64,000 nt of DNA from Accumulibacter sp. (GTDB taxonomy: Bacteria > Pseudomonadota > Gammaproteobacteria > Burkholderiales > Rhodocyclaceae): positions 62,001 to 126,000 of the forward strand of contig NZ_JAPUVI010000043.1 in assembly GCF_029255285.1 (NCBI RefSeq), in the 5' to 3' direction. Numbering within the stretch: position 1 is the stretch's first letter; each line of letters begins with the position of its first letter. Made by a program: the position numbers and the translations under genes. The notes beneath the pieces were generated by a model. The model ran no database searches and had not been told where the DNA came from. It saw nothing but the letters and a program-made list of their open reading frames with translations. Shown piece by piece: positions 26,381 through 47,874 of the stretch.

Positions 26381-28963
26381 ATGTTTGACAATCTGCGCAA
26401 ATATACTGCCGCTTGCGCGGTGGCGGTTGGTGGCGTTCTTCTGACCTGCCTCTCGTCCTGGAATGTGCGTCAGGAGTTGCAGACCAGTCACTATAAGGAA
26501 TTTCAGTGGGCGGCCGGTGACCGTATCCAGTCCGTGCGGGCGGTGGTGGACCAGGGGCTGGATTCCTTGCTCGAGATCCGGGGTTTGTTCTACGCGGCGC
26601 GAGAGATCGACGAGCGGGAGTTCCTGATCTTCACCGATTCGATTCTCAAGCGCCGGCCCTACATTGACAGCCTGCTCTGGGCGCCGCTACCGGTGTCGCC
26701 GCGACGGCCACGGTCGGCGCGCACCGCTGGTGGCGCAGTGGCGGGGACGCCAGCGCTCGGACCGGGGCTTGCCGGTGGCGGGCAGCGCGCGCGCGTCCCA
26801 GTGCTCCTCTCGGCCTCGCGTGCCGATCCGGGGCGTCTGAAGGGTGTGGACCTCAACGCGACCGACGAACTCGCCATGCTGCTCCAGCGTGCCCGAGACA
26901 GCGGTCAAATCGCGGTCAGCGGGCGAATGAAAGTGGCGCGCGACGGACGACGGGAAGGCGCCCATGTCATCTACGCCGCGCTTCCGGTCTACGCATCGGT
27001 CGGTGGCGACGGCGTCGCGCCCGCCGCGTACAAGGCGGCCAGGCTTCTCGGGTTCGTGGTTGGCGTTTTCGATATCGAGGAACTGGTTCATGCGGCCATC
27101 AGTCTGCTCGAACCGCGTGGTGTCGAGGTATTGGTGCGCGATGGCTCGGCCGGCGCCGACGCGCAGTTTCTCCATTTCTATGCCAGTCGCCTGGAACCGC
27201 GTACCTTGGCCGGTGCCGGTGGCTTCCTGCCGGCCAGCGACGAGGATCAACCGCGGATGGAGTCGACGATTCCGGTCGGCGACCGGAGCTGGTCGATCAC
27301 CTGCGTCGCCACCCACACCTTTCGTAGCGCCGAGGCTTTTACTGAGGCGCACTGGTCGGTACTCCTCGGCGGCATACTGTTTACCGCCTTGCTGAGTTTC
27401 TACCTGGTGCGCAGTCGGCGCGAACTGGACAATCGCATTCAGCTGAATCAGACGATTTACGAGCGCGAGGAGCTTTTCCGCCAGTTGGCGGAAACGGTCG
27501 ATGTCGTTTTTTGGGCGACCAACGCGGAGGCGACGCGACTCGAATACATTGGTCCTGCCTTCCGGCAGTTTGCCGGGCCCGGAGTGCCGTTCGACGATGC
27601 CGCACCGGCGCTCATGCTCGATGTTTTTGCGCCCCACGACCGCGCCACGCTGGTTGACGCAATCGCTCAGCTGCAAGCCGAAGGCGGGCGCTTCACGGTC
27701 GTTCTGCCGGTGTCGTCGGGCGACCGGGGGCCGCGCTGGTTGCGTGTCTGCGGTTTCCCGGTGCGGGAAATGGGTTCCGATCTCAGTCGGATCGTTGGCT
27801 TCCTGGAAGACATTACCGAGCACAAACTGGCCGAGGATGCCCTGCGCGACTCGGAAGCCAAGCTGCGTACGCTGTTCAACCATTCACCCGACCTGATCTT
27901 CACCGTCGATGCCGGAGCCAACATTCTGCTCACCAACCGTCCGCTGCCCTACCCGGTAGGCAGTGCCGGCGAAAAGCGCTCCGAACTGATTCTGCCGCCC
28001 GATGTGCGCGATGGCTATCTCAAGAAGCTGCGCCGGGTTTTTGCCAGTGGGCGCGTTGACCATTTCAGATACACCTCGAGCGACGCCACCTGGTGGGAAA
28101 TCCGCATGGTGCCGATCAGTTCGGCCAACGCCGTGATGGCGGCAATGGTGGTAATCACCGACATCACCGAGAACCGGAAGCTGCAATGGCAGGCCATTCG
28201 CAGCGCGCGTCTCGCTTCGCTGGGCGTGCTGTCGGCAGGCATTGCGCACGAAATCAACAATCCCAACCACGCGATTCTCGCCAATGCTTCGCTGCTGGCC
28301 CGAATCTGGCAGGACGCGCTACCTATCCTCAACGAGTACGCCGACGAACAGGGGGACTTTCTGCTGGCCGGGCTGAGCTTCCTGGAGGCACGCGGGATCA
28401 TCGCCAGGGGAATGCGTGACATTGGCGAAAACGCTAAACGAATCCAGAAGATTGTCGATAATCTGAAGCACCTCGGCAAGCAGGATCGCGGGCATATGGA
28501 CGAACTGGCGGATATCGGGAAAATCCTGCAGGCGGTGGTGACATTGCTCGATGCCCGTATCCGCAAGTACACCGACGTCTTTTCCCTCGATCTGCCGGCT
28601 TCGCTGCCGGCGGTCAGAGGCAATGTGCAACAGTTGGAACAGGTCTTCATCAACGTCATCGTCAACGCTCTCGAAGCCCTGCCAGAACGTAGTCGCGCCG
28701 TCCGGGTTTCGGCTCGAGCGGACAGTGAAGGAAGCCGTGTCGTCGTGCAGGTCGAGGATCAGGGCAGGGGGATCAGTGAGGATGTCATGGCTCAGATCGG
28801 CGACCCCTTTTTCACGACCAAGGCGGAGAGTGGTGGCACCGGCCTGGGGCTGTCCATCTCTTCGTCCATCGTCGACCGACACGGTGGCATCCTGAGATTC
28901 GAGTCGAACCATGAGCAGGGTACGACGGTGAGTATCGATTTGCCGGTCAGCAAGGAGGAGTGA
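26381..28963 (+). CDS. CHASE-PAS sensor histidine kinase
   Basis: An 860-residue membrane histidine kinase. TM1 (about residues 8-27) and TM2 (about 327-346) bracket a periplasmic CHASE-type sensor (QSVRAVVDQGLDSLLEIRG is typical). Two PAS domains follow (about 365-475 and 485-595). The H-box is unusual but clear, with the phosphoacceptor H623 in IAHEINNPNHAIL; N-box N762 in NVIVNALEAL; G boxes VEDQGRGI and GTGLGLSIS. The start is the first ATG after a weak ribosome binding site. The next gene is its response regulator, joined directly stop-to-start, so the two form a two-component system. The signal is unknown; CHASE domains bind small ligands such as cytokinins or metabolites in the periplasm. 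Confidence 0.93.
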   Translation: MFDNLRKYTAACAVAVGGVLLTCLSSWNVRQELQTSHYKEFQWAAGDRIQSVRAVVDQGLDSLLEIRGLFYAAREIDEREFLIFTDSILKRRPYIDSLLWAPLPVSPRRPRSARTAGGAVAGTPALGPGLAGGGQRARVPVLLSASRADPGRLKGVDLNATDELAMLLQRARDSGQIAVSGRMKVARDGRREGAHVIYAALPVYASVGGDGVAPAAYKAARLLGFVVGVFDIEELVHAAISLLEPRGVEVLVRDGSAGADAQFLHFYASRLEPRTLAGAGGFLPASDEDQPRMESTIPVGDRSWSITCVATHTFRSAEAFTEAHWSVLLGGILFTALLSFYLVRSRRELDNRIQLNQTIYEREELFRQLAETVDVVFWATNAEATRLEYIGPAFRQFAGPGVPFDDAAPALMLDVFAPHDRATLVDAIAQLQAEGGRFTVVLPVSSGDRGPRWLRVCGFPVREMGSDLSRIVGFLEDITEHKLAEDALRDSEAKLRTLFNHSPDLIFTVDAGANILLTNRPLPYPVGSAGEKRSELILPPDVRDGYLKKLRRVFASGRVDHFRYTSSDATWWEIRMVPISSANAVMAAMVVITDITENRKLQWQAIRSARLASLGVLSAGIAHEINNPNHAILANASLLARIWQDALPILNEYADEQGDFLLAGLSFLEARGIIARGMRDIGENAKRIQKIVDNLKHLGKQDRGHMDELADIGKILQAVVTLLDARIRKYTDVFSLDLPASLPAVRGNVQQLEQVFINVIVNALEALPERSRAVRVSARADSEGSRVVVQVEDQGRGISEDVMAQIGDPFFTTKAESGGTGLGLSISSSIVDRHGGILRFESNHEQGTTVSIDLPVSKEE

Positions 28964-30394
28964 ATGAAAGAAACGCCGTTTTCCAGCCTGCCCGTTTTTC
29001 TCGTCGATGACGATCCGTCGGTCCTGCACGCTTCGGCAGCCGTACTGCGCAGCGCCGGCGTGGCCAACATCCGGCTGGTGGACGACAGTCGGGAATTGCT
29101 GCCGGCGCTCGAGAAGCAGCCGGCGAGCGCCGTCCTGCTCGATCTCTTCATGCCCCACATTACGGGCAACAAACTGCTGCCGGACATCGTTCACCTCTAC
29201 CCGGAAGTACCGGTGATCGTCATGACGGCGGCGCAGGATGTCGAAACCGCGGTGCGCAGCATGAAGGAAGGCGCTTTCGATTATCTCGTCAAACCGGTCG
29301 AGGAAAGCCGGCTGATCGCCAGTGTCCGGCACGCGCTCGAAGTGCACTCGCTGCGCCGCCAGATGGGGGTGTTGAAACACTATCTCCTGTCGGATTGTCT
29401 GCAGAACAACGAGGCCTTCGCCGGCATTGTCACCAACAGCCGCCGGATGCGCTCGCTTTTTCAATACCTGGAGGCGGTCGCCGTGTCCGCCGAGCCGGTG
29501 TTGATCAGCGGGGAGACCGGGGCCGGCAAAGAGATGTTCGCGCACGCCCTGCACAAGTTGAGCGGTCTCGCGGGGCAATTCGTGCAGGTCAATGTCGCCG
29601 GTCTCGATGACACACTGTTTTCCGACACGCTTTTCGGCCACCGTAAAGGAGCGTTCACCGGTGCCGAGCAGACGCGCGCCGGACTGATCGCGCAGGCCGC
29701 CGGCGGAACGCTGTTCCTCGACGAAATCGGCGATCTTTCAATGGCTTCGCAGGTCAAGCTGCTACGCCTGTTGCAGGAGCACATGTACTTCCCGCTCGGT
29801 TCCGACGTGGCACGCCCGAGCGATGCTCGCGTCGTCTGCGCGACCAACTGCAAGCTGGCGCAGATGATGCGTCAGAACCAGTTTCGCTCGGATCTCTTCT
29901 TTCGCCTTTCGGTGCATCAGATCGAGGTGCCACCACTGCGCGAGCACAAGGAAGACATTCCGCTGCTGTTGCAGCATTTTCTCGACGAGGCGGCGGCTTC
30001 GATCAACAAACCGGCGCCCGAGCCATCGAACGAACTGATCACACTGCTTTCGAACTATCACTTCCCGGGTAATGTCCGCGAACTGCGGGCAATGGTTTTC
30101 AACGCCATGGCGCTGCATCGCGGCGGTTCGGTACTGGCCATGGACAGTTTCCGTCAGGCGATACAAAAGCAGCAAAAGACTGGCGTAGACAGCCCGGCGA
30201 CGGAAGCCTCCGACGGATTGCCGGTGGTGATTCCAGGGCGTTTCCCGACTCTCGACGAGGTCGAGGAAGCGCTGGTCAATGAAGCGCTCAAACGCGCCAA
30301 GGGAAATCAGGGAGTCGCCGCGACGCTGCTCGGACTTTCCCGGCCGGCACTCAACCGGCGCCTGGCGAGGCGCGCCTTTCAGGCTGACTCCTGA
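28964..30394 (+). CDS. Sigma-54-dependent response regulator (NtrC family)
   Basis: A 476-residue regulator with three domains: receiver (phosphoacceptor D60 in LLDLFMP, K near 109), sigma-54 AAA+ ATPase (Walker A GETGAGKE at residues 183-190, Walker B TLFLDEIGD, and a perfect GAFTGA loop at 229-234 that contacts sigma-54), and a Fis-type helix-turn-helix at about 430-474 (NQGVAATLLGLSRPALNRRL). It activates RpoN promoters from enhancer sites when phosphorylated by the adjacent kinase. ATG follows the kinase stop with no gap, AAGGAGG lies just before, so the pair is translationally coupled. The next two long intergenic regions contain paired sites and RpoN-like promoters that it could use. 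Confidence 0.95.
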   Translation: MKETPFSSLPVFLVDDDPSVLHASAAVLRSAGVANIRLVDDSRELLPALEKQPASAVLLDLFMPHITGNKLLPDIVHLYPEVPVIVMTAAQDVETAVRSMKEGAFDYLVKPVEESRLIASVRHALEVHSLRRQMGVLKHYLLSDCLQNNEAFAGIVTNSRRMRSLFQYLEAVAVSAEPVLISGETGAGKEMFAHALHKLSGLAGQFVQVNVAGLDDTLFSDTLFGHRKGAFTGAEQTRAGLIAQAAGGTLFLDEIGDLSMASQVKLLRLLQEHMYFPLGSDVARPSDARVVCATNCKLAQMMRQNQFRSDLFFRLSVHQIEVPPLREHKEDIPLLLQHFLDEAAASINKPAPEPSNELITLLSNYHFPGNVRELRAMVFNAMALHRGGSVLAMDSFRQAIQKQQKTGVDSPATEASDGLPVVIPGRFPTLDEVEEALVNEALKRAKGNQGVAATLLGLSRPALNRRLARRAFQADS

Positions 30395-30414
30395 TCGGGT
30401 TGGCCACCACACCC

Positions 30415-30422
30415 GGTGTAAC
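30415..30422 (+). promoter_or_regulatory. Candidate enhancer half-site GGTGTAAC (upstream, pit)
   Basis: An 8-bp site that is the exact inverse of the GTTACACC at 30527. It is the right arm of an 11-bp palindrome ACACC-C-GGTGT. The CGGTGTAAC string also occurs at the same relative place before the CYTH-CHAD gene. Confidence 0.45.
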
Positions 30423-30522
30423 ATTTCGCGATTTCGTACCGAACCCGAAGTCGGCATCCAGGCCATTGTTTTAAAGCCATTTTATGCCTATTTCTGGGGG
30501 CGCCGCGGGATCTCGTCGCGCA

Positions 30523-30534
30523 TTTTGTTACACC
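30523..30534 (+). promoter_or_regulatory. Candidate enhancer half-site TTTTGTTACACC (downstream, pit)
   Basis: A 12-bp string repeated exactly at 32982-32993. Its GTTACACC core lies 86 bp before the first base of the sigma-54-like promoter, within the usual range for an NtrC-type activator. Confidence 0.45.
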
Positions 30535-30612
30535 CCCTTCTGGCGTCGCTGGTCCACCTCCTGGGCGACCAAATAGCCGGTCACGCCGATTCTCGGCGGC
30601 TGTCCTTCGTTC

Positions 30613-30627
30613 TGGCATGGAAGATGC
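30613..30627 (+). promoter_or_regulatory. Sigma-54-like promoter upstream of pit
   Basis: TGGCATGGAAGATGC preceded by C and followed by T. Against the RpoN consensus it keeps the -24 GG and -12 GC at correct spacing, with two differences (TGGCAT for TGGCAC, ATGC for TTGC). The direction is towards pit. Confidence 0.45.
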
Positions 30628-31038
30628 TTACGTCACCCGACTCGATACCGCCGGCGGTCTGCCATGACCGCCGACAGTAGCCGCCGAACAGGCTATCGAG
30701 GGGGCGTGAGCAATTTGCCATAGAGGGGCTCAGGTGGCGGCTCACGATACGTTCGGACGGGAAATCGAACTGACGCCGGTCAGTCCACCGTGTCACCGCC
30801 TGTTCTCGGTTCGCCAGCGATAGTTCCCGGGACAGTGCTTGGCGGCACGCCGGTGTTCGCGGCGGCGGCCGGTGCGTATGACAGAACAGTTCTTTCAACC
30901 GAGTCGAGCAGGAGGATCGACACGACGTCACGCGCGTACACACCGACAGCCAGTCGGCAATAGCCAGGCGCAATGGCGGCAACGGGAGTTTACGCCCTGC
31001 CGCGCTGCCTCACCTTACAAAAACCACAGGGCCGCTTG

Positions 31039-32079
31039 ATGAGTACATTGCTTATTCTGACGATCGCAACTGTCGCCATCGTCCTCTTCTTTGATTACAC
31101 CAACGGCTTCCATGATGCCGCGAATATTGTCGCGACGATCATCGCGTCGCGCGCCATGACTCCGATACAGGCGGTGATCATTGTCGGAACCTTCGAGTTT
31201 CTCGGTCCCCTGTTTGGCGGTACGGCGGTGGCCAACACGATCGGCAAGTTCGTCACTCTGGGCGACGTGGCCGCCGTTCTCTCGCTGGCGATTCTGATGA
31301 GCGGGTTGGTCGGCGCCATCGTCTGGAATCTGGCCACCTGGTACTTCGGCATTCCGTCGTCGTCCTCGCATGCGCTGGTCGGCGGACTGATCGGCGCGGT
31401 GATCGTCTCTGCCGGTCCGGACAACGTCGTGTGGGGCGTTTCGCAACTGATGCACGGACAGATGACGGGAATAATGAAGGTGCTGGCCGCCCTCATCCTG
31501 TCGCCGCTGATCGGTTTTTGGGCGGGTTTCCTGATCCTGCGGGTGATGCAAGTCCTGCTCTTCGCGGCTAAACCGTCGGCCAACACCGGACTGCGTTATG
31601 CGCAGTTCATCACGGCGGCCGGACTGGCTTTCTCGCATGGCGCCAACGACGCCCAGAAGAGCATGGGAATGCTGACGCTCGCCCTGCTGCTGGGCGGTTT
31701 CATTCCGACCTTCGAGGTTCCCTTCTGGGTCATGCTCGCCTGTGCCACGGCGATCACCCTGGGAATTCTTTCCGGCGGCTGGCGGATCGTGCGCACGCTC
31801 GGTTTCGCGATCTACCGGGTTCGCCCGATCCACGCCTTGAGTTCGCAACTGACTTCGGCGATCGTCATCCTGACGGCATCGGTGATTGGCGCTCCGGTAT
31901 CGACCACCCATGTCGTCGCGACGTCGATCATGGGCATCGGCGCTTCGGAGCGGCCGAACGCCGTACGCTGGAAGAAGGCCAAGGACATCGCGATCACTTG
32001 GCTCATTACCATCCCCGGCTCCGCGCTGGTTGCCGTTCAGACATTCGCTCTCGTCAATCTCTTTCTTGGAAAGGTCTAA
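31039..32079 (+). CDS. pit: Pit-type low-affinity inorganic phosphate transporter
   Basis: A 346-residue membrane protein of the PiT family, which takes up metal-phosphate with protons or sodium. Both signature repeats are present: FFDYTNGFHDAANIVATII at the N-terminus and FSHGANDAQKSMG in the second half, and about ten hydrophobic segments. Length is at the short end of Pit proteins. The start M at 31039 follows a weak GGGCCGC; an upstream in-frame ATG at 30973 would add 22 non-conserved residues. The DUF47 gene begins 2 bp after the stop, a common pair in which the DUF47 protein modulates Pit. Pit transport is central to anaerobic phosphate release and proton motive force in polyphosphate-accumulating bacteria. 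Confidence 0.93.
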   Translation: MSTLLILTIATVAIVLFFDYTNGFHDAANIVATIIASRAMTPIQAVIIVGTFEFLGPLFGGTAVANTIGKFVTLGDVAAVLSLAILMSGLVGAIVWNLATWYFGIPSSSSHALVGGLIGAVIVSAGPDNVVWGVSQLMHGQMTGIMKVLAALILSPLIGFWAGFLILRVMQVLLFAAKPSANTGLRYAQFITAAGLAFSHGANDAQKSMGMLTLALLLGGFIPTFEVPFWVMLACATAITLGILSGGWRIVRTLGFAIYRVRPIHALSSQLTSAIVILTASVIGAPVSTTHVVATSIMGIGASERPNAVRWKKAKDIAITWLITIPGSALVAVQTFALVNLFLGKV

Positions 32080-32081
32080 TC

Positions 32082-32738
32082 ATGTCGGACGTAAGCATCG
32101 CCAAACCCTCCATCACTCGCCGGCTCCTGCATCGGGTCTTTCCCAAGGTGCCGAATTTCTTCGCCCTGCTGGCCGAACAGAGCGCGCACGTCGATCTCAG
32201 CGCGGGCCTGCTGGTCGAGTACATGGGCGCCGACAGTTCGCAGGCGGCGAAGAAGATCGTCGAAGCCGAATATGAGGGCGACAGACTCAAGGTACGCAAT
32301 CTTACGCTGCTCAACGAGGCGTTTTCGACGCCGATCGATCGCGAAGATCTGCACCGGGCGATCATCAACCTCGATGAAATCATCAATAGCTGCAAGTCCA
32401 TCGTCGTCGAAATGGATTCTTCGGTTCTGGCGCTCAAACCGGACAAACATTGTCTGGAGATGGCCGTCCACCTGAAGGCTGGGGCCGAGGCGGTGGCCGC
32501 CGGCTACGGTCGCCTGGGGAGTGATCCGAAATTGGGACGCACCGACGCCGAGAAGGCCGACAAGGCGGTGCGCAACCTGACGAGAACCCATCGGCGTGCA
32601 CTGGCCGAGCTGTTTCAGGACGCCGATTTCCACAACATCTTCCGGCGCAAGGAGATCTACAACGAGTTGCGCGGCGCCGGCGATCGCCTCAACGTCTGCA
32701 ACAGCACCTTGCTCGACATCGTCGTCAAGCTCTGCTGA
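32082..32738 (+). CDS. DUF47/PhoU-like Pit accessory protein
   Basis: A 218-residue all-helical protein of the DUF47 (PhoU_div) family. Diagnostic features are FPKVPNFFALLAEQSAHV at the start, the EAEYEGDRL box, FSTPIDREDLHRAI and the LDEIINSCKSIV helix. Homologues regulate or assist Pit transporters and coordinate metal ions through Glu/Asp boxes of this kind. It starts 2 bp after pit with GGAAAGG inside the end of pit, so it is in one operon with the transporter. Two more, less typical PhoU-like proteins are encoded further on. Confidence 0.92.
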   Translation: MSDVSIAKPSITRRLLHRVFPKVPNFFALLAEQSAHVDLSAGLLVEYMGADSSQAAKKIVEAEYEGDRLKVRNLTLLNEAFSTPIDREDLHRAIINLDEIINSCKSIVVEMDSSVLALKPDKHCLEMAVHLKAGAEAVAAGYGRLGSDPKLGRTDAEKADKAVRNLTRTHRRALAELFQDADFHNIFRRKEIYNELRGAGDRLNVCNSTLLDIVVKLC

Positions 32739-32811
32739 CCCTTCCCTGATGCGGCTTGGGGAGTTGACTCGCTGGTCGCTCCCGACGCCGCCCCGCCCCG
32801 CGCCGCAGTTC

Positions 32812-32825
32812 GCCGGTCGACCGGC
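32812..32825 (+). terminator. Possible terminator after the pit operon
   Basis: GCCGG and CCGGC pair across TCGA, 74 bp after the DUF47 stop, followed by CGCTGTTTTCC. Short stem and short T-run make it a weak call. Confidence 0.35.
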
Positions 32826-32876
32826 CGCTGTTTTCCGCTCGCTGTTTTCCCCCATGTTGCTCGATCCCTGACCGAC

Positions 32877-32884
32877 GGTGTAAC
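32877..32884 (+). promoter_or_regulatory. Candidate enhancer half-site GGTGTAAC (upstream, CYTH-CHAD)
   Basis: Same 8 bp as at 30415, here 109 bp before its inverse at 32986 and 193 bp before the sigma-54-like promoter (198 bp in the pit region). Confidence 0.45.
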
Positions 32885-32981
32885 GCTGTCACATTGCGTG
32901 GCGCTTGAGAATTCATTGCAACGTCCTGTTTTGTTGGAGAAACGCTACCCAGAGGTAATGCTGGAGATAGTACGTTGTGTG

Positions 32982-32993
32982 TTTTGTTACACC
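32982..32993 (+). promoter_or_regulatory. Candidate enhancer half-site TTTTGTTACACC (downstream, CYTH-CHAD)
   Basis: Identical 12 bp to 30523-30534. The GTTACACC core begins 84 bp before the sigma-54-like promoter, against 86 bp in front of pit. Confidence 0.45.
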
Positions 32994-33069
32994 AGTAAAC
33001 GCTTTCCCAGCGCCCGGGTGTTCGTTCTTGAAATCTGATTTATAAGGGATATTGCCCAGCCTTTGGATC

Positions 33070-33084
33070 TGGCATGACTCGTGC
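33070..33084 (+). promoter_or_regulatory. Sigma-54-like promoter upstream of the CYTH-CHAD gene
   Basis: TGGCATGACTCGTGC, preceded by C and followed by T. It has the invariant GG and GC at RpoN spacing and differs from consensus at the same two columns as the pit element (T for C at position 6, G for T at position 12). Predicted transcript start would be about 100 bp before the ATG. Confidence 0.45.
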
Positions 33085-33195
33085 TCACTGTGACACTGCA
33101 AACACCCGGCAGGCGCCTACGACAAAGAAAGGCGATCGGGCCAGGGCTTTTCTTGGTGTGGCTGGAACTTCAGTCCGATTCTCAGGAGCTTACAG

Positions 33196-34671
33196 ATGGA
33201 CATGGAAAACGAACTCAATCTCTCCCTTAGACCCGGAGTTGCCAACCGGCTGGCACGGCATCCCTTGCTGATCCAGGCCAAGCCGATCCGACAGAAAGTA
33301 AGCAACACCTACTACGACACGCCCGATCTTCGCTTGCAGCGCGAGAGCGTCGTGGTTCGCGATCGCAAGAGAGGCTCGACCTGCCTGTCGTCGGTGAAAC
33401 GGGTTTCCGTGTCTGAGCGTCGGCCGACGAGCGATGCCGAATGGGCGGTAGCCGCCACGCCGGGTGAACTCGATTTTTCACACGTCGCGGATAGCAGTTT
33501 GCGGCAGTGGCTGGAGTCGGTCCGTCAGGAATTGCGGCCGGCGTTTACCACCAGCTTCACCCGTGACGCCTGGTTGCTCGAGCCGCGCGCCGGTGTGCGC
33601 ATCGAACTGGCGCTCGACCGCGGCTGGATCGAAGCGCAGGGTCGTCGCCAGCCGATCTGTGAGGTCGGACTGGAGTTGCTGTCGGGCGAGGTCGCCGATC
33701 TCTTTTCCGCGGCCGGCGAACTGCAGACCGAGTTGCCGTTGCACCCGGAAAGCTGCAGCAAGTTTCAACGCGGCTATCGTGTGTTGACCGATCAGGCGCT
33801 GCAGGTGGTCAAGGCCGTTCCGGTGGCAAGCGACGCCGGCATGACGGCGATCGCCGCTTTCCGCACGATCGCCCGCTCTTGCCTCAAGCACCTGCAAGGC
33901 AACGAGCAGGGAGTGCGCGAGAGCGACAACCCGGAGTTCGTCCATCAGGCGCGGGTTGCGATTCGCCGCCTGCGCTCGGCGATCCGCGTCTGGAAACCGC
34001 TGCTGCCCGAGTCCTTCGTGAACGAATTCGATCCCCTCTGGCGAGAACTGGCTCAGAAGCTGGGCGAAACGCGTAACTGGGACGTTTTTCTCGCCGAGAC
34101 CCTGCCGGCCATCGTCGCCGCTTTCTCCGCCGGCGGGGAGCATGCACGCCTGACACGGTACGCCCGTCAACGCTGCGCGATCAACCGCCGAGCGGCACGC
34201 GGTGCGCTTGCGGCGGACGGCTACTCGCGACTGCTGCTCGAGTTCACCGCGGCGGTAATGGCTCTTCCGGAAAGTGACCAGGATCGGCTCGAACGTTTCG
34301 CCCCGCGCTGCCTCGACAAACGCGCCAAGCAGGTCAGGCGCCTGGCGGCCGAAGCGCTGGAAAGCGACGCGGCCGCTCGTCATCGCCTGCGTGTTGCCTA
34401 CAAGCGCCTGCGCTACGCCCTTGAGTTCTTCGCCCCGTTGTTCCCCGGCGAACGGCTGCGCAGTTACCACGTTTCGGCAAGCAGCCTGCAGGAACTGCTC
34501 GGGCGACTCAACGACCTGGCTGTGGCCGGCCAGTTGACCGACGAAGCGCTGCCCGGCGAGCCTGGCGAAGCCATTCGCTGCTGGCTCGAGGCGCAGAGTG
34601 AATCGCTGCTGCCGGAGCTCAGGAGTGCGCTTGACGATTTTCACCGGCAAGCCGTGCCATGGCGTGCCTGA
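33196..34671 (+). CDS. CYTH-CHAD domain protein (polyphosphate-associated)
   Basis: A 491-residue protein with an N-terminal CYTH (triphosphate tunnel) domain of about 200 residues and a C-terminal CHAD domain. CHAD domains are helical, rich in conserved His, Arg and Lys and bind polyphosphate; here the conserved histidine helices are FVHQARVAIRRLRSAIR and RHRLRVAYKRLRYALEFF. The CYTH signature normally reads ExExK; this protein has E4-N5-E6-L7-N8, with Asn in the lysine position, so catalysis may be altered. Start at ATG 33196 with GGAG before it. It follows the Pit operon and precedes two PhoU-like genes, in line with a polyphosphate role. Confidence 0.92.
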   Translation: MDMENELNLSLRPGVANRLARHPLLIQAKPIRQKVSNTYYDTPDLRLQRESVVVRDRKRGSTCLSSVKRVSVSERRPTSDAEWAVAATPGELDFSHVADSSLRQWLESVRQELRPAFTTSFTRDAWLLEPRAGVRIELALDRGWIEAQGRRQPICEVGLELLSGEVADLFSAAGELQTELPLHPESCSKFQRGYRVLTDQALQVVKAVPVASDAGMTAIAAFRTIARSCLKHLQGNEQGVRESDNPEFVHQARVAIRRLRSAIRVWKPLLPESFVNEFDPLWRELAQKLGETRNWDVFLAETLPAIVAAFSAGGEHARLTRYARQRCAINRRAARGALAADGYSRLLLEFTAAVMALPESDQDRLERFAPRCLDKRAKQVRRLAAEALESDAAARHRLRVAYKRLRYALEFFAPLFPGERLRSYHVSASSLQELLGRLNDLAVAGQLTDEALPGEPGEAIRCWLEAQSESLLPELRSALDDFHRQAVPWRA

Positions 34672-34722: not shown

Positions 34723-35493
34723 ATGACATGGATTTCCGCTTCGCCGCCGGGCTGGGCAAACGCGTCACCATCGGCGACCAGCACAGCGCCTGACTTTTTT
34801 TCGCTGCTCGACCAGCAAACGAGGATGGTGGCCAACTTGGCTCGCGCTCTCGGCGAGATCGTACAGGGCAAGGAGTCCATCCATTCCGTGCGCCTGCTCG
34901 ACCTCGAACAGCGGCGCGAGGAATTGCGGCGACGCCATCGCGCCGCGGTGCATTCTCTGATTGCACGGGCAGTGAGCGTCGACGAAATCGACGGGACGAT
35001 GGAAGCGCTTGACCGGGCGGCGGTGAGCCTGCTGCGCACGGCGCGCGGTTTGCATGAATTTCGCCGTGCTCCGCAGGAGGCGGCTTGCAGGATGATGACG
35101 CTCATCGAGCGGGCGACCGAAAGCTTGCGGCATGGCTATACCCGGCTGGCAAACGGCTCACCGGCCGCCGAGTTGGATGCCGACGAGGCGATCGGCAGCA
35201 AGAACGCTTTGAGCAACTATCGCGTCATCGGACGTCAGGCGACTTTCCTGGTGGCCAACCCGGGGCACTCGCCGAATGCGTTCGAGGCGGATCAGGTGGC
35301 CGGCGATCACAGCTTCGAACTGGGGAAACTGTACGGCCATCTGACGGACGTCGCTCATGAGCTTGCCAGTGCTGGCGGCATTCTCAAGAAGTGGTCCCAG
35401 CGACTGTCCGCCGGACGCTATCCCAAGGGCGCCGAACCGATTGCCGGGTGGGGCTCCTTGCGCTTTCCGGTTGTCGAGATCTTTGCGACATGA
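34723..35493 (+). CDS. Divergent DUF47/PhoU-like helical protein
   Basis: A 256-residue, probably all-alpha protein that I do not recognise with certainty. Residues about 24-115 have the feel of a DUF47 domain: DFFSLLDQQTRMVANLARAL, then an acidic-basic LLDLEQRREELRRRHRAAV helix and VSVDEIDGTMEALDRAAVSLL, in the place where DUF47 proteins have their IDREDI box. The second half (RQATFLVANPGHSPNAFEAD onward) is not family-like. It begins 52 bp after the CYTH-CHAD stop, preceded by GGGAAAAAGG, so it is likely in the same operon. Function unknown; the neighbourhood points to phosphate or polyP. Confidence 0.6.
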   Translation: MTWISASPPGWANASPSATSTAPDFFSLLDQQTRMVANLARALGEIVQGKESIHSVRLLDLEQRREELRRRHRAAVHSLIARAVSVDEIDGTMEALDRAAVSLLRTARGLHEFRRAPQEAACRMMTLIERATESLRHGYTRLANGSPAAELDADEAIGSKNALSNYRVIGRQATFLVANPGHSPNAFEADQVAGDHSFELGKLYGHLTDVAHELASAGGILKKWSQRLSAGRYPKGAEPIAGWGSLRFPVVEIFAT

Positions 35494-35590
35494 ATCTCTC
35501 GGCGATCTTCATTCTGGCCGACCGCTTTGAAAAGCCCGCGCAAAGTGGTCCGGCTTACGCTTAATTGGGCATAGGGTTGGAGAATTCATC

Positions 35591-36313
35591 ATGGAAACAC
35601 AAGTTCAAACTCATGTGGCGGAGAGATCCCTCGGCTCGAGGTCGAGCAAGAGCGATCTGGAATGCTATCTGGACGCCATTGCCGACGCCACCGAAGTTTT
35701 CCGGTCGGCGGTCGAGGTCTACCTGAGAAGTGGGCCGGACGGCAGTTGCTGGCAACATGCGAAACGGATGTCCGAGCACCTGCGGACGGTAGAGGATTTA
35801 CAGCAAAGGCTGGAAACGGCGCTCCCCGCGGGATCGCTTCTCGGCGGTCTGGTGGCGGACATGGTCGAACCGCTGATCGGTGTCGGTCGTCTGATCAAGG
35901 ACATGAAGCGGCAGATCACGGGCTTTGCCATCGAGTCCGGTTTCTCGGGACCTGGCCGCCGAGTTCCGGCGTATCTGGTGCCCGCTGTCCGGGATCTGAG
36001 TGACGACGTCTGTGCGGCGGTGGAAGCGCTGGTGGTGGCCTACCGTCAGAGCGCCGTCTGGTCGGAACAAACGTCGACCGGTGAGGAAGAGCGCCGTGTC
36101 GCCTGGTACGAGAGTCAGGCGGATCGCCGGTCGATGGAACTGATTCAGAAGATTTTTTCCGACGAAGACCTGGAGGTCAAGATGAAACTCTCCTTGGCTC
36201 AGTTCGTCGAGGAGATCGATCGCGTAGCGGATTACGCCGAGTGCGTCGACCGCGAACTACGGCACAAACACTTCGACACCGTACAGCGCGCTCGCTGTAA
36301 AGACCGGCACTGA
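35591..36313 (+). CDS. PhoU-like helical protein
   Basis: A 240-residue, helix-rich, Glu/Arg-rich protein with no signal peptide. The segment YLDAIADATEVFRSAVEVYL near the start, VADMVEPLIGVGRLIKDMKR in the middle and EEIDRVADYAECVDREL at the end resemble helices of PhoU/DUF47 proteins, where the final helix contains an IDRVADYAE-type motif. The family assignment is by eye. Start is the ATG at 35591 with TTGGAG about 10 bp before it. With the two preceding genes this gives three PhoU-like products beside Pit and CHAD genes. Confidence 0.65.
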   Translation: METQVQTHVAERSLGSRSSKSDLECYLDAIADATEVFRSAVEVYLRSGPDGSCWQHAKRMSEHLRTVEDLQQRLETALPAGSLLGGLVADMVEPLIGVGRLIKDMKRQITGFAIESGFSGPGRRVPAYLVPAVRDLSDDVCAAVEALVVAYRQSAVWSEQTSTGEEERRVAWYESQADRRSMELIQKIFSDEDLEVKMKLSLAQFVEEIDRVADYAECVDRELRHKHFDTVQRARCKDRH

Positions 36314-36570
36314 TTGTTCCGTGAGCGGCCCGCGGCCGCGGGTCGGCTGACAGACGCGGCGTGGCCAGAGCCGCGTTTCGTTTCGTCTCTCGGGTGCCGG
36401 GCAAGGAAGCGGCGGTCGCCGGTGCGGCCGGCGGCCTCCTGCCGGACCGGTTACGCGTGCCGCCCGGAACCCCGCACCTGGGTGGCGAGGGGTTACGCGG
36501 AGTGGATTGGGTCGGCCGGTTGGCGAAGGGGCTTCTCTTGTCGTTGGAGACTGGATAAGGGGTTGAAGCT

Positions 36571-38784
36571 GTGGAAGTGGCAATAAATTTCAAGAACGAC
36601 AAACTCGTCGGCGACTTCTGGGGCGGGCTAGCGGCAATGCTCGTTGCCTTGCCGTCGGCGATCGCTTTCGGCGTGACGATCTACGCTTCGATCGGTCCGG
36701 CCTATGCCGGTCTGGGAGCACTGGCCGGAATTCTCGGTGCCACCGCCCTTGGCTTGGTGGCGCCGGCATTGGGCGGTACGAACCGGTTGATCACCGCGCC
36801 TTGCGCACCGGCAGCGGCGGTGCTCTCGGCCTTTGCCATCGAGCTCGTTCAGCACGGCGTCGCCCCGCCTTTCGTCGTCCTGATGTTGACCGCGCTCGGT
36901 CTGGTGGCCGGCCTGCTGCAACTCTTCCTGGGCTTCATGGGGATTGGCAGCCTGATCAAATACATTCCGTTTCCAGTCGTCAGCGGCTATCTGACGGGGG
37001 TCGGCCTGATCATCATCGGCAGTCAGATTCCCAAGTTTCTGGGCGTTTCCGGCGGCATCGCGTGGTGGCGGGCACTGATCTCGCCCGAGCTTTGGCAATG
37101 GCAGAGTGCATTGATCGGTGGAGTGACTGCGGCGGTGATGATCGGCGCGCCATTGCTCACGCGTGCCGTTCCGGCGGCGATTCTCGGGTTGCTGGCCGGA
37201 GTGTCAACCTATTTCGCATTGGCTTACGGCGTGGACCAGAGTCTGCTGCTGATCGAGGGCAACAAGCTGATCATCGGCCCGCTCGGCGGAACGGCGTCGA
37301 GCATGCTCGACGCCATCACCGGGCGTTGGCAGGAAATCGGCGAATTGAAACTCAGCCAGATCGGCGGACTGCTCGGTACGGCGTTCACCCTGGCCGTCTT
37401 GTTGTCGATCGACACGCTCAAGACGGCTGTCGTCCTCGACGCGCTGACCCGTGGCCGTCACGACTCGAACCGTGAATTGATTGCGCAAGGGTTGGGCAAC
37501 GTCGCGTCGGCCTGCGCCGGTGGCATGCCGGGAGCCGGACAGATGGGCGCGACACTGGTGAACCTGGCGAGCGGCGGGCAGACCCGCGTTTCCGGTGTGG
37601 TCGAAGGCGTGTTGTCGTTGATCGCCTTTCTCGCCCTGGGAGCTTTCATCGCGTGGATCCCGGTGGGCGCGCTGGCCGGCATCCTGATCGTTGTCGGGAT
37701 ACGGATGATAGACCGGCACAGCCTGCATCTACTCGAGTCGCCGTGGACCCTGCTCGACTTCATCGTCATCGTGGCGGTGGTCGCCGTCGCGGTTGGCTAC
37801 AGCCTGATCGCTGCGTCGGGGGTCGGCATTGCGCTGGCGATGTTCCTTTTCATCCGCGAGCAGCTCAGCAGCACGGTGATTCGCCGCAAGGTAGAGGGCG
37901 GCAGCCGTTTCTCGAAGCGCGTCCGCCTGCGGTCGGACATGGAGCAGCTCGAAAGACAAGGGGTCCAGACGGCCATCCTGGAGCTTCAAGGCAGTTTGTT
38001 CTTTGGTACCAAGGACCAGCTCTATACGGCGCTCGAACCTGAACTCAGCCGGCGCAGGTACATCGTTCTGGACATGCGGCGCGTCCAGTCGGTCGATGTC
38101 ACGGCGGTGCACCTGCTCAGCCAGATCAGGGACTCGCTGATCGAACGAGACGCCTATCTGATCTTCAGCAGCCTGTCGCATACCTTGCCGAATGGCCGGA
38201 ACATCGGCGAATTCTTCGACCAGATGGAACTGACGACGACAACCGAGCATGTCAAGGTGTTTCCCGAACTCGACAGTGCGGTCGAGTGGATCGAGGACCA
38301 GATCCTGGGCGCCACCGAGGCCGTGGAGTCGGAGGCCGCGGCGCTCGAGCTGAACGATCTCGAACTGTTCCGCGATCACAAGGAAGAGACGCTGATCGAC
38401 CTCGAAGCGTGCCTAGAGCGGCGCTCACTGGCCAAGGACGACAAGGTTTATTCGTTCGGCGATCCGGGCAACGAACTGTATCTGATACGCAAGGGCGCGA
38501 TTCGTATTACCTTGCCGATCGCCAGCGGTGCGGGCGACCATCATGCGCTGACCTATGGGCGTGGCGACTTCTTCGGCGGCATGGCTTTCCTGTCGCAGGC
38601 GACTCGGCTCAACGATGCCGTGGCACTCGAGAACACCGAGCTGTACGTATTGCAGCGCGAGCAGTTCGAGAAACTCCGCGAGGAGCACAAACGACTGGCG
38701 CTGCATCTCGTCGAAGCGGTCGCCAAGGTGCTGGCATTGCGGCTGCGCTATGCGGACAAGGAACTGATGGCCATGCAGGATTAA
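36571..38784 (+). CDS. SulP family anion transporter with STAS and cyclic-nucleotide-binding domains
   Basis: A 737-residue membrane transporter. Residues about 10-420 form the SulP transport core (FWGGLAAMLVALPSAIAFG at TM1, then TM segments with PFPVVSGYLTGVGLI and AGAGQMGATLVNLASGG-like GMPGAGQMGATLVN). A STAS domain follows at about 445-580 (AILELQGSLFFGTKDQLY, VLDMRRVQSVDVTAVHLL), and a cyclic nucleotide-binding fold at about 610-725 (VYSFGDPGNELYLIRKGAI). In the nucleotide-binding cassette the usual FGE reads FGG and the R-S/T pair is RL, so ligand binding is in doubt. A GTG start is used. Substrate could be sulfate, bicarbonate or another anion. Confidence 0.9.
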   Translation: MEVAINFKNDKLVGDFWGGLAAMLVALPSAIAFGVTIYASIGPAYAGLGALAGILGATALGLVAPALGGTNRLITAPCAPAAAVLSAFAIELVQHGVAPPFVVLMLTALGLVAGLLQLFLGFMGIGSLIKYIPFPVVSGYLTGVGLIIIGSQIPKFLGVSGGIAWWRALISPELWQWQSALIGGVTAAVMIGAPLLTRAVPAAILGLLAGVSTYFALAYGVDQSLLLIEGNKLIIGPLGGTASSMLDAITGRWQEIGELKLSQIGGLLGTAFTLAVLLSIDTLKTAVVLDALTRGRHDSNRELIAQGLGNVASACAGGMPGAGQMGATLVNLASGGQTRVSGVVEGVLSLIAFLALGAFIAWIPVGALAGILIVVGIRMIDRHSLHLLESPWTLLDFIVIVAVVAVAVGYSLIAASGVGIALAMFLFIREQLSSTVIRRKVEGGSRFSKRVRLRSDMEQLERQGVQTAILELQGSLFFGTKDQLYTALEPELSRRRYIVLDMRRVQSVDVTAVHLLSQIRDSLIERDAYLIFSSLSHTLPNGRNIGEFFDQMELTTTTEHVKVFPELDSAVEWIEDQILGATEAVESEAAALELNDLELFRDHKEETLIDLEACLERRSLAKDDKVYSFGDPGNELYLIRKGAIRITLPIASGAGDHHALTYGRGDFFGGMAFLSQATRLNDAVALENTELYVLQREQFEKLREEHKRLALHLVEAVAKVLALRLRYADKELMAMQD

Positions 38785-45954: not shown

Positions 45955-47874
45955 TCAGGTGGCGACGCTGACCCGGTTGCGGCCGGCGTTCTTCGCCTGG
46001 TAGAGGGCAGCGTCGGCGGCCTGGACCAGCGCCTGGCAGTCCTTTTCGGTACTGTTGAGAACCGCCACGCCGACGCTGACCGTGAGCGGGATCGGACGGC
46101 GCTGCCAAAGGAAGTCGTACTTCTGAACCACGGAGCGGATGCGCTCGGCGACCTGCACGGCGGTGGCCACGTTGGTGTTGGGCAGGACGGCGGCGAATTC
46201 TTCGCCGCCGAAGCGAAAGATCATGTCCTCGGGGCGCGAGGCACGCTTGAGCAGATCGGCGAGTTGTTGCAGGACGGCGTCTCCGGCAGGATGGCCGAGC
46301 GTATCGTTGACCCGCTTGAAGTGGTCGATGTCGAGCAGCAGGCAGGCCATGGGCAGCGCGTTGGCCTGCGCGAAGGCCCATTCCGAGGCGAGGAAATCGA
46401 GACCATGTCGGCGATTCGGCAGTTGCGTGAGATTGTCGGTCAGCGCGTCACGCAACAGGCGTTTGTGGGCGACGGCGAACTGGTCGGTCGAACGCATGAT
46501 GCCGCGGCGTTCGCGTTGGATCTCCTCGCGCAGCAGAAGCATGCGACTCGCCGTGTTGAGGCGCACGCGCAGAGTCTGTAGCGTCAGCGGCTTGACGAGA
46601 ATGTCGTCAGCGCCGGCGTCGATCGCCTCGAGAAGATGGCCTTCGCTTTCGGGCGAGGCCAACAGGAGCAGGTAGGTTTCCTTGCCGGCGGGAGTCTGGC
46701 GAAGAATGCGGCAGAACGCGGCCGGATTTATCCCCGGCATGGCCATGTCGGCGATGACGATCTGGGCCGGTTGGTGTAACGCTTGCCTGATTTCTTCGGC
46801 GTGGCCATCGACCAGCACGGGCAGATGGCCCAGTTCCTCGACTTGCTGCATCAACTCCGCCAGCTCTGCCGGCGGAATACCAAGCATCTGGACGTGCAGG
46901 CGCGGCGCGGCGACCTTGCCGCTCTGTTCGGTGGGCTTCGTGCTGACCCGGCGGCTAGGCGGACTGGCGGCCAGAATCTCGGCGAACGGCGGCACTTCCT
47001 GGGTGCGAACCTGCAGCGTCGCTCCCCAGTCGCGCCAGCGCCTGACCATTCTATCGACCATATCGTTCAACGCATCGCCACTGATGCCGAGCCTCGCCGC
47101 CCGGGTCAACAGCCCGGGAAGTAGGCTCCAGCGCGACTCCTCGTCGGCCATGCAGAGTTCGGCCAGCGAACGCGCGAAATTCAGGGAGTAGGTGAGCGTC
47201 TGTACCCGGGAGCCGTCGGCGAAGGCGGCCACATCGGGCTCTTCGTGGTGATAAGCGGCCTGGATGAGCATCTCTGGGATTCCCCACTCGGCCAGCATCG
47301 TCGCTCCGAGCTGCCGATGGTCCATGTCGAAGCACTCGCGTTCGAGGCTCACCAGAGCCTGCTGTCCCTCCTGTACCTGGAGCAGCACGGTCGCGTACTT
47401 CTCGGGATACAGCGAAGCCATCGCCAACTCGCCGACGCGCGCCAGCAGGCCGATGGTGAAGATTTCTTCACTCGAAATCTGCGCAAAATGGGCCAGTTCC
47501 TGGCAGGCGATACCGGTGGCCAGCGAGTGCCCCCAGAATCCCGGGTAATCGAAAGCCGAACACTGTCCGCTGGTATGGGTGTGCATCACCGACAGGCCGA
47601 TCACCAGGTCGCGCACCCGGAACGAGCCGAGGGCGACGATCGCTCGTTGCAGCGAAACGATCGGCCGCGTTCGGCCGAAAGCGGCCGCGTTGGCAAACTT
47701 GAGAAGGCGTCCGGCAATCGCCGGGTCCGACTGGACCAGTTGCACGAGGTCTGTGACTCGAAAGTCATCCCGTTGCAGCAGCTTGATGATCGAAAAGGCA
47801 ACGCCCTTGGGCGAGGGCAGTTTGCCCGTAGCCTTCATCGAGTGATAGCGGTCGGGATCGACAAAACTGATCAA
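45955..47874 (-). CDS. HDOD-receiver-GGDEF regulator (diguanylate cyclase)
   Basis: A 639-residue cytoplasmic signalling protein. HDOD-type domain at about residues 20-220 (LPSPKGVAFSIIKLL, LLKFANAAAFGRTRPIVSL), a receiver-like domain at about 325-440 (IVIADMAMPG, with the acidic position conserved), and a GGDEF domain at about 480-637 with an intact active-site RFGGEEFAAVLP and the DIDHFKRVND metal site. It therefore should make c-di-GMP, which could act on the nearby YcgR-type effector. The HDOD domain may recognise another nucleotide signal. No operon partner. Confidence 0.93.
   Translation of the reverse strand: MISFVDPDRYHSMKATGKLPSPKGVAFSIIKLLQRDDFRVTDLVQLVQSDPAIAGRLLKFANAAAFGRTRPIVSLQRAIVALGSFRVRDLVIGLSVMHTHTSGQCSAFDYPGFWGHSLATGIACQELAHFAQISSEEIFTIGLLARVGELAMASLYPEKYATVLLQVQEGQQALVSLERECFDMDHRQLGATMLAEWGIPEMLIQAAYHHEEPDVAAFADGSRVQTLTYSLNFARSLAELCMADEESRWSLLPGLLTRAARLGISGDALNDMVDRMVRRWRDWGATLQVRTQEVPPFAEILAASPPSRRVSTKPTEQSGKVAAPRLHVQMLGIPPAELAELMQQVEELGHLPVLVDGHAEEIRQALHQPAQIVIADMAMPGINPAAFCRILRQTPAGKETYLLLLASPESEGHLLEAIDAGADDILVKPLTLQTLRVRLNTASRMLLLREEIQRERRGIMRSTDQFAVAHKRLLRDALTDNLTQLPNRRHGLDFLASEWAFAQANALPMACLLLDIDHFKRVNDTLGHPAGDAVLQQLADLLKRASRPEDMIFRFGGEEFAAVLPNTNVATAVQVAERIRSVVQKYDFLWQRRPIPLTVSVGVAVLNSTEKDCQALVQAADAALYQAKNAGRNRVSVAT

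Follow-up and report, generated by a model that had tools for sequence, protein, structure and literature searches.

NtrC, AtoC and ZraR-type sigma-54 systems combine a response regulator of receiver-AAA+-Fis order, carrying a GAFTGA motif, with a -24/-12 promoter and conserved upstream sites. Phosphate transport genes are placed under two-component control by PhoR-PhoB, where PhoB is an OmpR-type regulator using Pho boxes, and Pit-driven phosphate efflux and uptake are central to enhanced biological phosphorus removal. Here we analysed a 64,000-nucleotide stretch (contig NZ_JAPUVI010000043.1, positions 62,001 to 126,000; hereafter the window) of the 4.19 Mb genome of Accumulibacter, a polyphosphate-accumulating, phosphorus-removing sludge bacterium. 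In the window, genes for a sensor kinase and an NtrC-type regulator are followed by pit and by a CYTH-CHAD gene. The regions before these two genes appear to be two instances of a single sigma-54 promoter cassette under the control of the adjacent kinase/regulator pair, which would constitute a phosphate-transport regulon apart from PhoB; we put the probability of this reading at roughly 0.85. The system resembles those of NtrC, AtoC and ZraR but differs in its phosphate-transport targets, in a rigid pair of facing sites and in the presence of IHF-like elements. In contrast to PhoR-PhoB, its targets are low-affinity transporters, and no Pho box was found in the two regions.

Passages of PMC11131965 name PhoR-PhoB as the Accumulibacter phosphate regulator, and PhoR-PhoB and PhoU are the only phosphate regulators named in those passages. 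The PitA-PitR and NptA-PhoU pairs are also similar, in that Pit is encoded alongside a PhoU-like protein and Na/Pi transporters carry a PhoU domain; however, their role there is in the accessory control of S. aureus PhoPR, and the word 'sigma' is absent from the main text of that study (PMC13170248). An Accumulibacter study used rpoN as a reference for quantitative PCR and inferred an FNR motif (PMC6446978). We found no open-access paper joining Accumulibacter, sigma-54 and Pit, and no description of the cassette system in the open-access literature, among the matches listed and as judged by title and start of abstract.

Each cassette consists of two sites that face each other, approximately 110 bp apart, followed by a -24/-12 promoter (Table 1). 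The spacing from site 1 to site 2 is 112 bp before pit and 109 bp before CYTH-CHAD, and that from site 2 to the TGGCATG-N5-TGC promoter is 86 and 84 bp, respectively. An earlier reading of this DNA, made by a model from the letters alone (the original prediction), had listed these strings with their coordinates and spacings, all of which proved exact. Site 1 (GGTGTAAC) occurs five times on the two strands of the window where 0.50 are expected, and none of 100 shuffles reached five. The fifth copy (46773-46780) has no partner site, falls within a long open reading frame (45955-47874) and was read as chance. Perfect TGGCATG-N5-TGC strings are confined in the window to the two promoters; with one mismatch allowed, promoter strings alone were not commoner than chance (12 versus 14.3 expected). 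Across the genome, both GGTGTAAC-N(90-120)-GTTACACC (106-136 bp in total) and GTTACACC-N(65-95)-TGGCNNG-N5-TGC had two matches only, at these two regions, and neither reversed-pattern control gave any. None of 3000 dinucleotide shuffles of either region yielded the site pair or the layout. The two regions had been described as otherwise dissimilar; indeed, they share only three direct 10-mers, all within TTTTGTTACACC (shuffles: mean 0.40, largest 6). As shuffles alone can reach three shared 10-mers, the case rests on the arrangement and not on shared words.

The arrangement is maintained across the genus. When site pairs with at most one mismatch and 20-300 bp between them were collected from 22 Accumulibacter stretches (477,558 bases), 32 of 33 were spaced at 109-112 bp, the other at 20 bp. 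Among 15 exact pairs picked regardless of promoter, the window's two included, 13 have a strict TGGCNYR-N5-TGC 84-87 bp past site 2; the others are L092, which has a GGGCACG variant at 79 bp, and L094, the sole out-of-genus pair of the 15. Logos were built from 42 promoter-selected cassettes, the unique ones of 49 that had no more than two mismatches in the sites and passed a promoter-score threshold of 15. These gave GGTGTWACGTTTCG for site 1, GGGGTGYAACAAAAYG for site 2 (reverse) and TGGCAYG-N5-TGCTT for the promoter. A strict NifA-type TGT-N10-ACA was rejected as the site motif, since by eye it is not kept in the site 1 logo. Reduction by similarity left 40 non-redundant cassettes for the spacer and IHF analyses, in which the sites, promoter and spacing are kept and the spacers have diverged.

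All 51 distinct site pairs found in the genus precede CHAD, pit, a DUF47-type gene, SulP, or one of two genes for divergent PhoU-like proteins, here termed U1 and U2. The 51 derive from 53 pattern rows, G008 and G020 each contributing one pair read both ways. Annotation covered 46 pairs (44 automatically, and two before CHAD genes mostly without CYTH), three were read separately (L089, L095 and L097), and the remaining two, both from G026, were merged as identical to others. The 46 represent 48 distinct cassettes minus L158, which is out of the genus, and the reversed G008 reading (L101 +). Some cassettes are located on contigs apart from the regulator (G001 C13, G006 C320, G007 C163 and G012 C44), and linkage alone is therefore insufficient to explain the target association. 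In L100 and L152, and also in L017 and L018, the CHAD gene behind the cassette is without most of its CYTH part; because this part is mostly lost in some species, CHAD rather than CYTH seems to be the retained function.

One could regard the repeats as left-over promoter DNA, spread by duplication or mobility and now of little functional consequence. In L131 (G001:C13), a remnant of the regulator C-terminus (4099-4182; residues 449-476, 71%) lies just upstream of a cassette and SulP gene. This remnant may be the trace of a rearrangement in which the cassette was carried along, so that cassettes may on at least one occasion have been transferred together with their flanks. On the other hand, the two window regions have little in common beyond the sites and promoter, these elements and their spacing are constant over the 40 non-redundant cassettes despite the diverged spacers, and the design is held in Gammaproteobacteria. 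We therefore consider that a non-functional origin is scarcely credible.

The cassette and the regulator are distributed together. A relaxed three-part pattern was detected in 26 of 28 genus genomes, and in 22 of the 23 of high quality. In a sample of 297 genomes from the family, it was present in all 12 genus genomes versus one of 285 others, and the lone match sits inside a 366-codon open frame; the reversed-pattern control likewise gave 1/297. The regulator itself (E 1e-150 or better, five best candidates scored per genome) was found in 12/12 genus genomes versus 0/285 others. Hence, save for the match inside the open frame, the pattern is restricted in the family sample to genomes in which the regulator occurs. 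This bears on whether the cassette, though real and sigma-54 dependent, responds to some other enhancer-binding protein (for example NtrC or NifA), with the adjacent regulator a bystander. With Y=C the site core, GGTGCA..TGCACC, resembles NtrC half-sites, and by eye some site 2 copies show the TGT..ACA spacing of NifA sites. Many of the other 285 family genomes would be expected to have ntrC, whereas all 285 are without the regulator and 284 without the pattern. Gammaproteobacterial carriers, moreover, have the recognition-helix core of the regulator too. Taken together, control by a different activator is improbable.

The adjacent regulator carries an intact GAFTGA motif at residue 229, as had been claimed for a sigma-54 activator directly upstream, and an intact Walker A motif (GETGAGK) at residue 183. 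With its domain set, these motifs and a -24/-12 promoter with conserved upstream sites, it passes as a member of the NtrC family, and it matches Accumulibacter records at up to 95% identity. Assignment to a named NCBIfam equivalog (NtrC, AtoC or ZraR) was rejected, as the best 25 of 113 matched models all scored below the curated cut-off (AtoC 333.1 versus 714 bits; NtrC 332.6 versus 558.6 bits). The genome encodes one copy of rpoN and one ihfA match above cut-off. For comparison, 77 of 81 regulator sequences were aligned, leaving out L021, L035, L036 and L068 (stops or truncation). In two draft genomes the regulator matches in two pieces (L021 10001-11397; L068 10001-11415), reflecting sequencing error or decay. 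The recognition-helix core SRPALNRRL is present in 24 of the 25 aligned cassette carriers from Accumulibacter and the Gammaproteobacteria, L013 being different. In a tree of 60 rows, 9 of which are from Accumulibacter, these carriers group with moderate support (92/85), with five other rows among them.

Among gammaproteobacterial loci with a 60-66% identical regulator, a cassette was recognised in 8/13, several of the contigs being short. A scan of 12 gammaproteobacterial genomes (L033 was not among them) found exactly one cassette in each of eight. The downstream gene in these is a Na/Pi cotransporter, a phosphate transporter unrelated to Pit: it lies within 1 kb in seven of the eight, confirmed by Pfam PF02690 in six genomes, and the eighth contig stops after 370 bp. 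In 6/8 gammaproteobacterial cassettes, site 1 forms the dyad GGTGTAAC-N10-GTTACACC with no more than two mismatches, and in G357 the cassette and regulator are on different contigs. Outside Accumulibacter, a Pit, Na/Pi, DUF47 or SulP gene lies near the regulator in 18 of 33 loci at 54% identity or above versus 0 of 26 below, although this cut was chosen post hoc and the flanks read were of unequal length. The two-component system also adjoins Pit, DUF47 or Na/Pi genes in Magnetococcales relatives. In one of these (L051 11386-11593), the gap between the regulator and the DUF47/Pit genes holds two inverted copies of GGGGTGAA separated by about 120 bp, together with a partial promoter string (TGGCACG), and may perhaps be a diverged cassette.

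By the terms of the original prediction, loss of the strings from orthologous regions would have counted against it. Throughout the genus, and in Gammaproteobacteria as well, the strings are retained with their spacing unchanged and precede phosphate-transport or polyphosphate-linked genes, and the predicted control of the Pit and CYTH-CHAD operons by this regulator is thereby supported and widened on comparative grounds. The IHF-like element between the sites, the additional cassettes in relatives and the downstream genes at 34723-38784 go beyond that prediction. A broader interpretation is that of a second, PhoB-independent system, in which one two-component family governs bulk low-affinity phosphate transport in Accumulibacter and Gammaproteobacteria by means of a portable sigma-54 cassette, swapping unrelated transporters (Pit, Na/Pi and probably SulP), and which Accumulibacter gained relative to its family together with the polyphosphate-accumulating life. 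We regard this as evenly balanced.

An IHF-like element occupies a conserved place between the sites. Scoring used the IHF consensus YAANNNNTTGATW; in forward orientation its enrichment was lower than in reverse, and the forward orientation was rejected. The best match starts 42-44 bp into the cassette in 28 of the 40 non-redundant cassettes, 24 of these with at least 7/9 positions, and a best match 41-43 bp before the promoter is likewise found in 28/40 (24 with at least 7/9). Scores of at least 7/9 anywhere in the spacer between sites 1 and 2 were reached by 30/40 cassettes versus 27% of shuffles, and anywhere between site 2 and the promoter by 30/40 versus 19%. A mechanism can be proposed in which a signal would reach the CHASE-PAS-PAS kinase, leading to phosphorylation of the regulator, which would bind the facing sites 1 and 2. 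A DNA-bending protein, probably IHF, would fold both spacers, the one separating the sites and the one leading from site 2 to the promoter, and the AAA+ ring of the regulator would remodel RpoN polymerase bound to the -24/-12 element, some 85 bp further downstream. The output would comprise Pit with its DUF47 partner and the CHAD protein and, via read-through or their own cassettes, the two PhoU-like proteins and the SulP transporter. Since the CHAD protein is among the targets and CHAD domains bind polyphosphate (PMC6537752), control may extend to polyphosphate handling.

A further alternative is that pit and CHAD are under textbook PhoB control, the sigma-54 element being secondary. The published role of PhoR-PhoB in Accumulibacter (PMC11131965) speaks for this. 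However, neither region contains a Pho-box-like site, the best candidates having five mismatches to the 14 specified positions of the consensus. In addition, pitA transcripts are reported as higher at high phosphate, with pst and pho genes up at low phosphate (PMC12604563); this opposite behaviour fits a control route apart from PhoB, although it is no proof of this particular one. Primary control by PhoB thus appears highly unlikely, and, as a prediction, the proposal that phosphate uptake and polyphosphate handling could depend on RpoN and not on PhoB alone has good support.

Several observations weigh against a cassette controlled by the adjacent regulator. SRPALNRRL also occurs in 10 of 52 aligned regulators for which no cassette was found, so the recognition helix is shared but not diagnostic, and GAFTGA is replaced among the 77 aligned sequences by GAFSGA (22), GSFTGA (10), GAYTGA (6), GAYSGA (2) or GAFTDA (1). 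Genus genomes G002 and G016 have no match to the pattern, four of the 12 scanned gammaproteobacterial genomes yielded no cassette, and a search in the Magnetococcales relatives recognised none. Of 21 assessable Accumulibacter loci (a 22nd, L036, ends within the regulator), 15 have the full layout immediately 3' of the regulator and six have it incomplete: L010, L014, L015, L017, L018 and L021. Of these, L010, L014, L017 and L018 keep an exact site 2 at this position and have a full cassette before CHAD. The genome sets and named loci overlap and hence are not independent, and absence of the regulator from the 285 family genomes rests on five candidates in each. The logo overstates promoter conservation, because its cassettes were chosen by promoter score; the test on 15 exact pairs is unselected. 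Finally, the second IHF-like element, located in the spacer ahead of the promoter, scores poorly in the two window cassettes (5/9 and 6/9), which makes IHF the least certain part. On balance, control by the adjacent kinase and regulator remains our preferred reading. It would provide a candidate regulator, exact predicted binding sites and promoters, and a target list for the defining step of a polyphosphate-accumulating organism; control of that step becomes directly testable, and the promoter signature is usable to find the regulon in metagenomes.

Table 1. Coordinates of the two cassettes and associated genes in the window.
Feature	Position	Strand	Detail
Sensor histidine kinase (CHASE-PAS-PAS-HisKA-HATPase)	26381..28963	+	Pfam CHASE 1.7e-18, PAS_4 3e-12, PAS 3.5e-5, HATPase_c 5.1e-24
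NtrC-type response regulator (receiver, sigma54 AAA+ with GAFTGA, Fis-type HTH), presumed activator	28964..30394	+	Pfam Response_reg 5.5e-25, Sigma54_activat 8.1e-57, HTH_8 4.9e-8
Site 1 before pit	30415..30422	+	GGTGTAAC
IHF-like element 1 before pit	30459..30471	+	CAGGCCATTGTTT, 7/9 consensus positions; place conserved across cassettes
Site 2 before pit	30523..30534	-	TTTTGTTACACC (GGTGTAACAAAA on - strand; GTTACACC at 30527)
Sigma-54 type -24/-12 promoter before pit	30613..30628	+	TGGCATGGAAGATGCT
pit, low-affinity phosphate transporter	31039..32079	+	Pfam PHO4 1e-87
DUF47 / PhoU_div accessory protein	32082..32738	+	Pfam PhoU_div 1.1e-10
Site 1 before CYTH-CHAD	32877..32884	+	GGTGTAAC
IHF-like element 1 before CYTH-CHAD	32919..32931	+	CAACGTCCTGTTT, 7/9
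Site 2 before CYTH-CHAD	32982..32993	-	TTTTGTTACACC (GTTACACC at 32986)
Sigma-54 type -24/-12 promoter before CYTH-CHAD	33070..33085	+	TGGCATGACTCGTGCT
CYTH-CHAD protein	33196..34671	+	Pfam CHAD 1.3e-54, CYTH 1.1e-9
U1, divergent DUF47/PhoU-like protein	34723..35493	+	hhalign versus DUF47 alignment: probability 98.2, E 3.5e-14
U2, divergent PhoU-like protein	35591..36313	+	Predicted fold matches PhoU-like 2iiu, E 2.6e-5, TM 0.71
SulP-family anion transporter with STAS and cyclic-nucleotide-binding domains	36571..38784	+	Pfam Sulfate_transp 2.3e-45, STAS 2.2e-11, cNMP_binding 1.4e-16

The HisKA domain of the kinase scores 24.6 bits, slightly below the Pfam cut-off of 26.9. From the promoter string to the pit ATG is 426 bp (window 30613-31038), compared with approximately 80 bp in L014, L017 and L018. 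An Rfam scan of the window at the gathering threshold returned two tRNAs only, so the pit leader matches no Rfam family. In a search of a plasmid collection, the best 20 of 60 records all matched inside pit.

U1 begins 51 bp 3' of the CHAD gene and is probably part of the CHAD transcript, and it has its own cassette in many relatives. The nearest structure to its predicted fold is the PhoU-like 3l39. For U2, PhoU_div matches at the sequence level are weak and under cut-off, and hhalign against the DUF47 alignment was negative. The SulP gene is directly 3' of a cassette in some relatives. Another DUF47-type gene is found under a cassette in L012 (16713-17369), L138 (6291-7946) and L074 (1943-4612, minus strand), instead of or beside U1-U2, followed in L138 and L074 by a second Pit gene. 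In L008 (14004-15718), pit and DUF47 occur as a second pair in tandem (73% and 51% identical to the genes of the window), beside an inverted CHAD gene.

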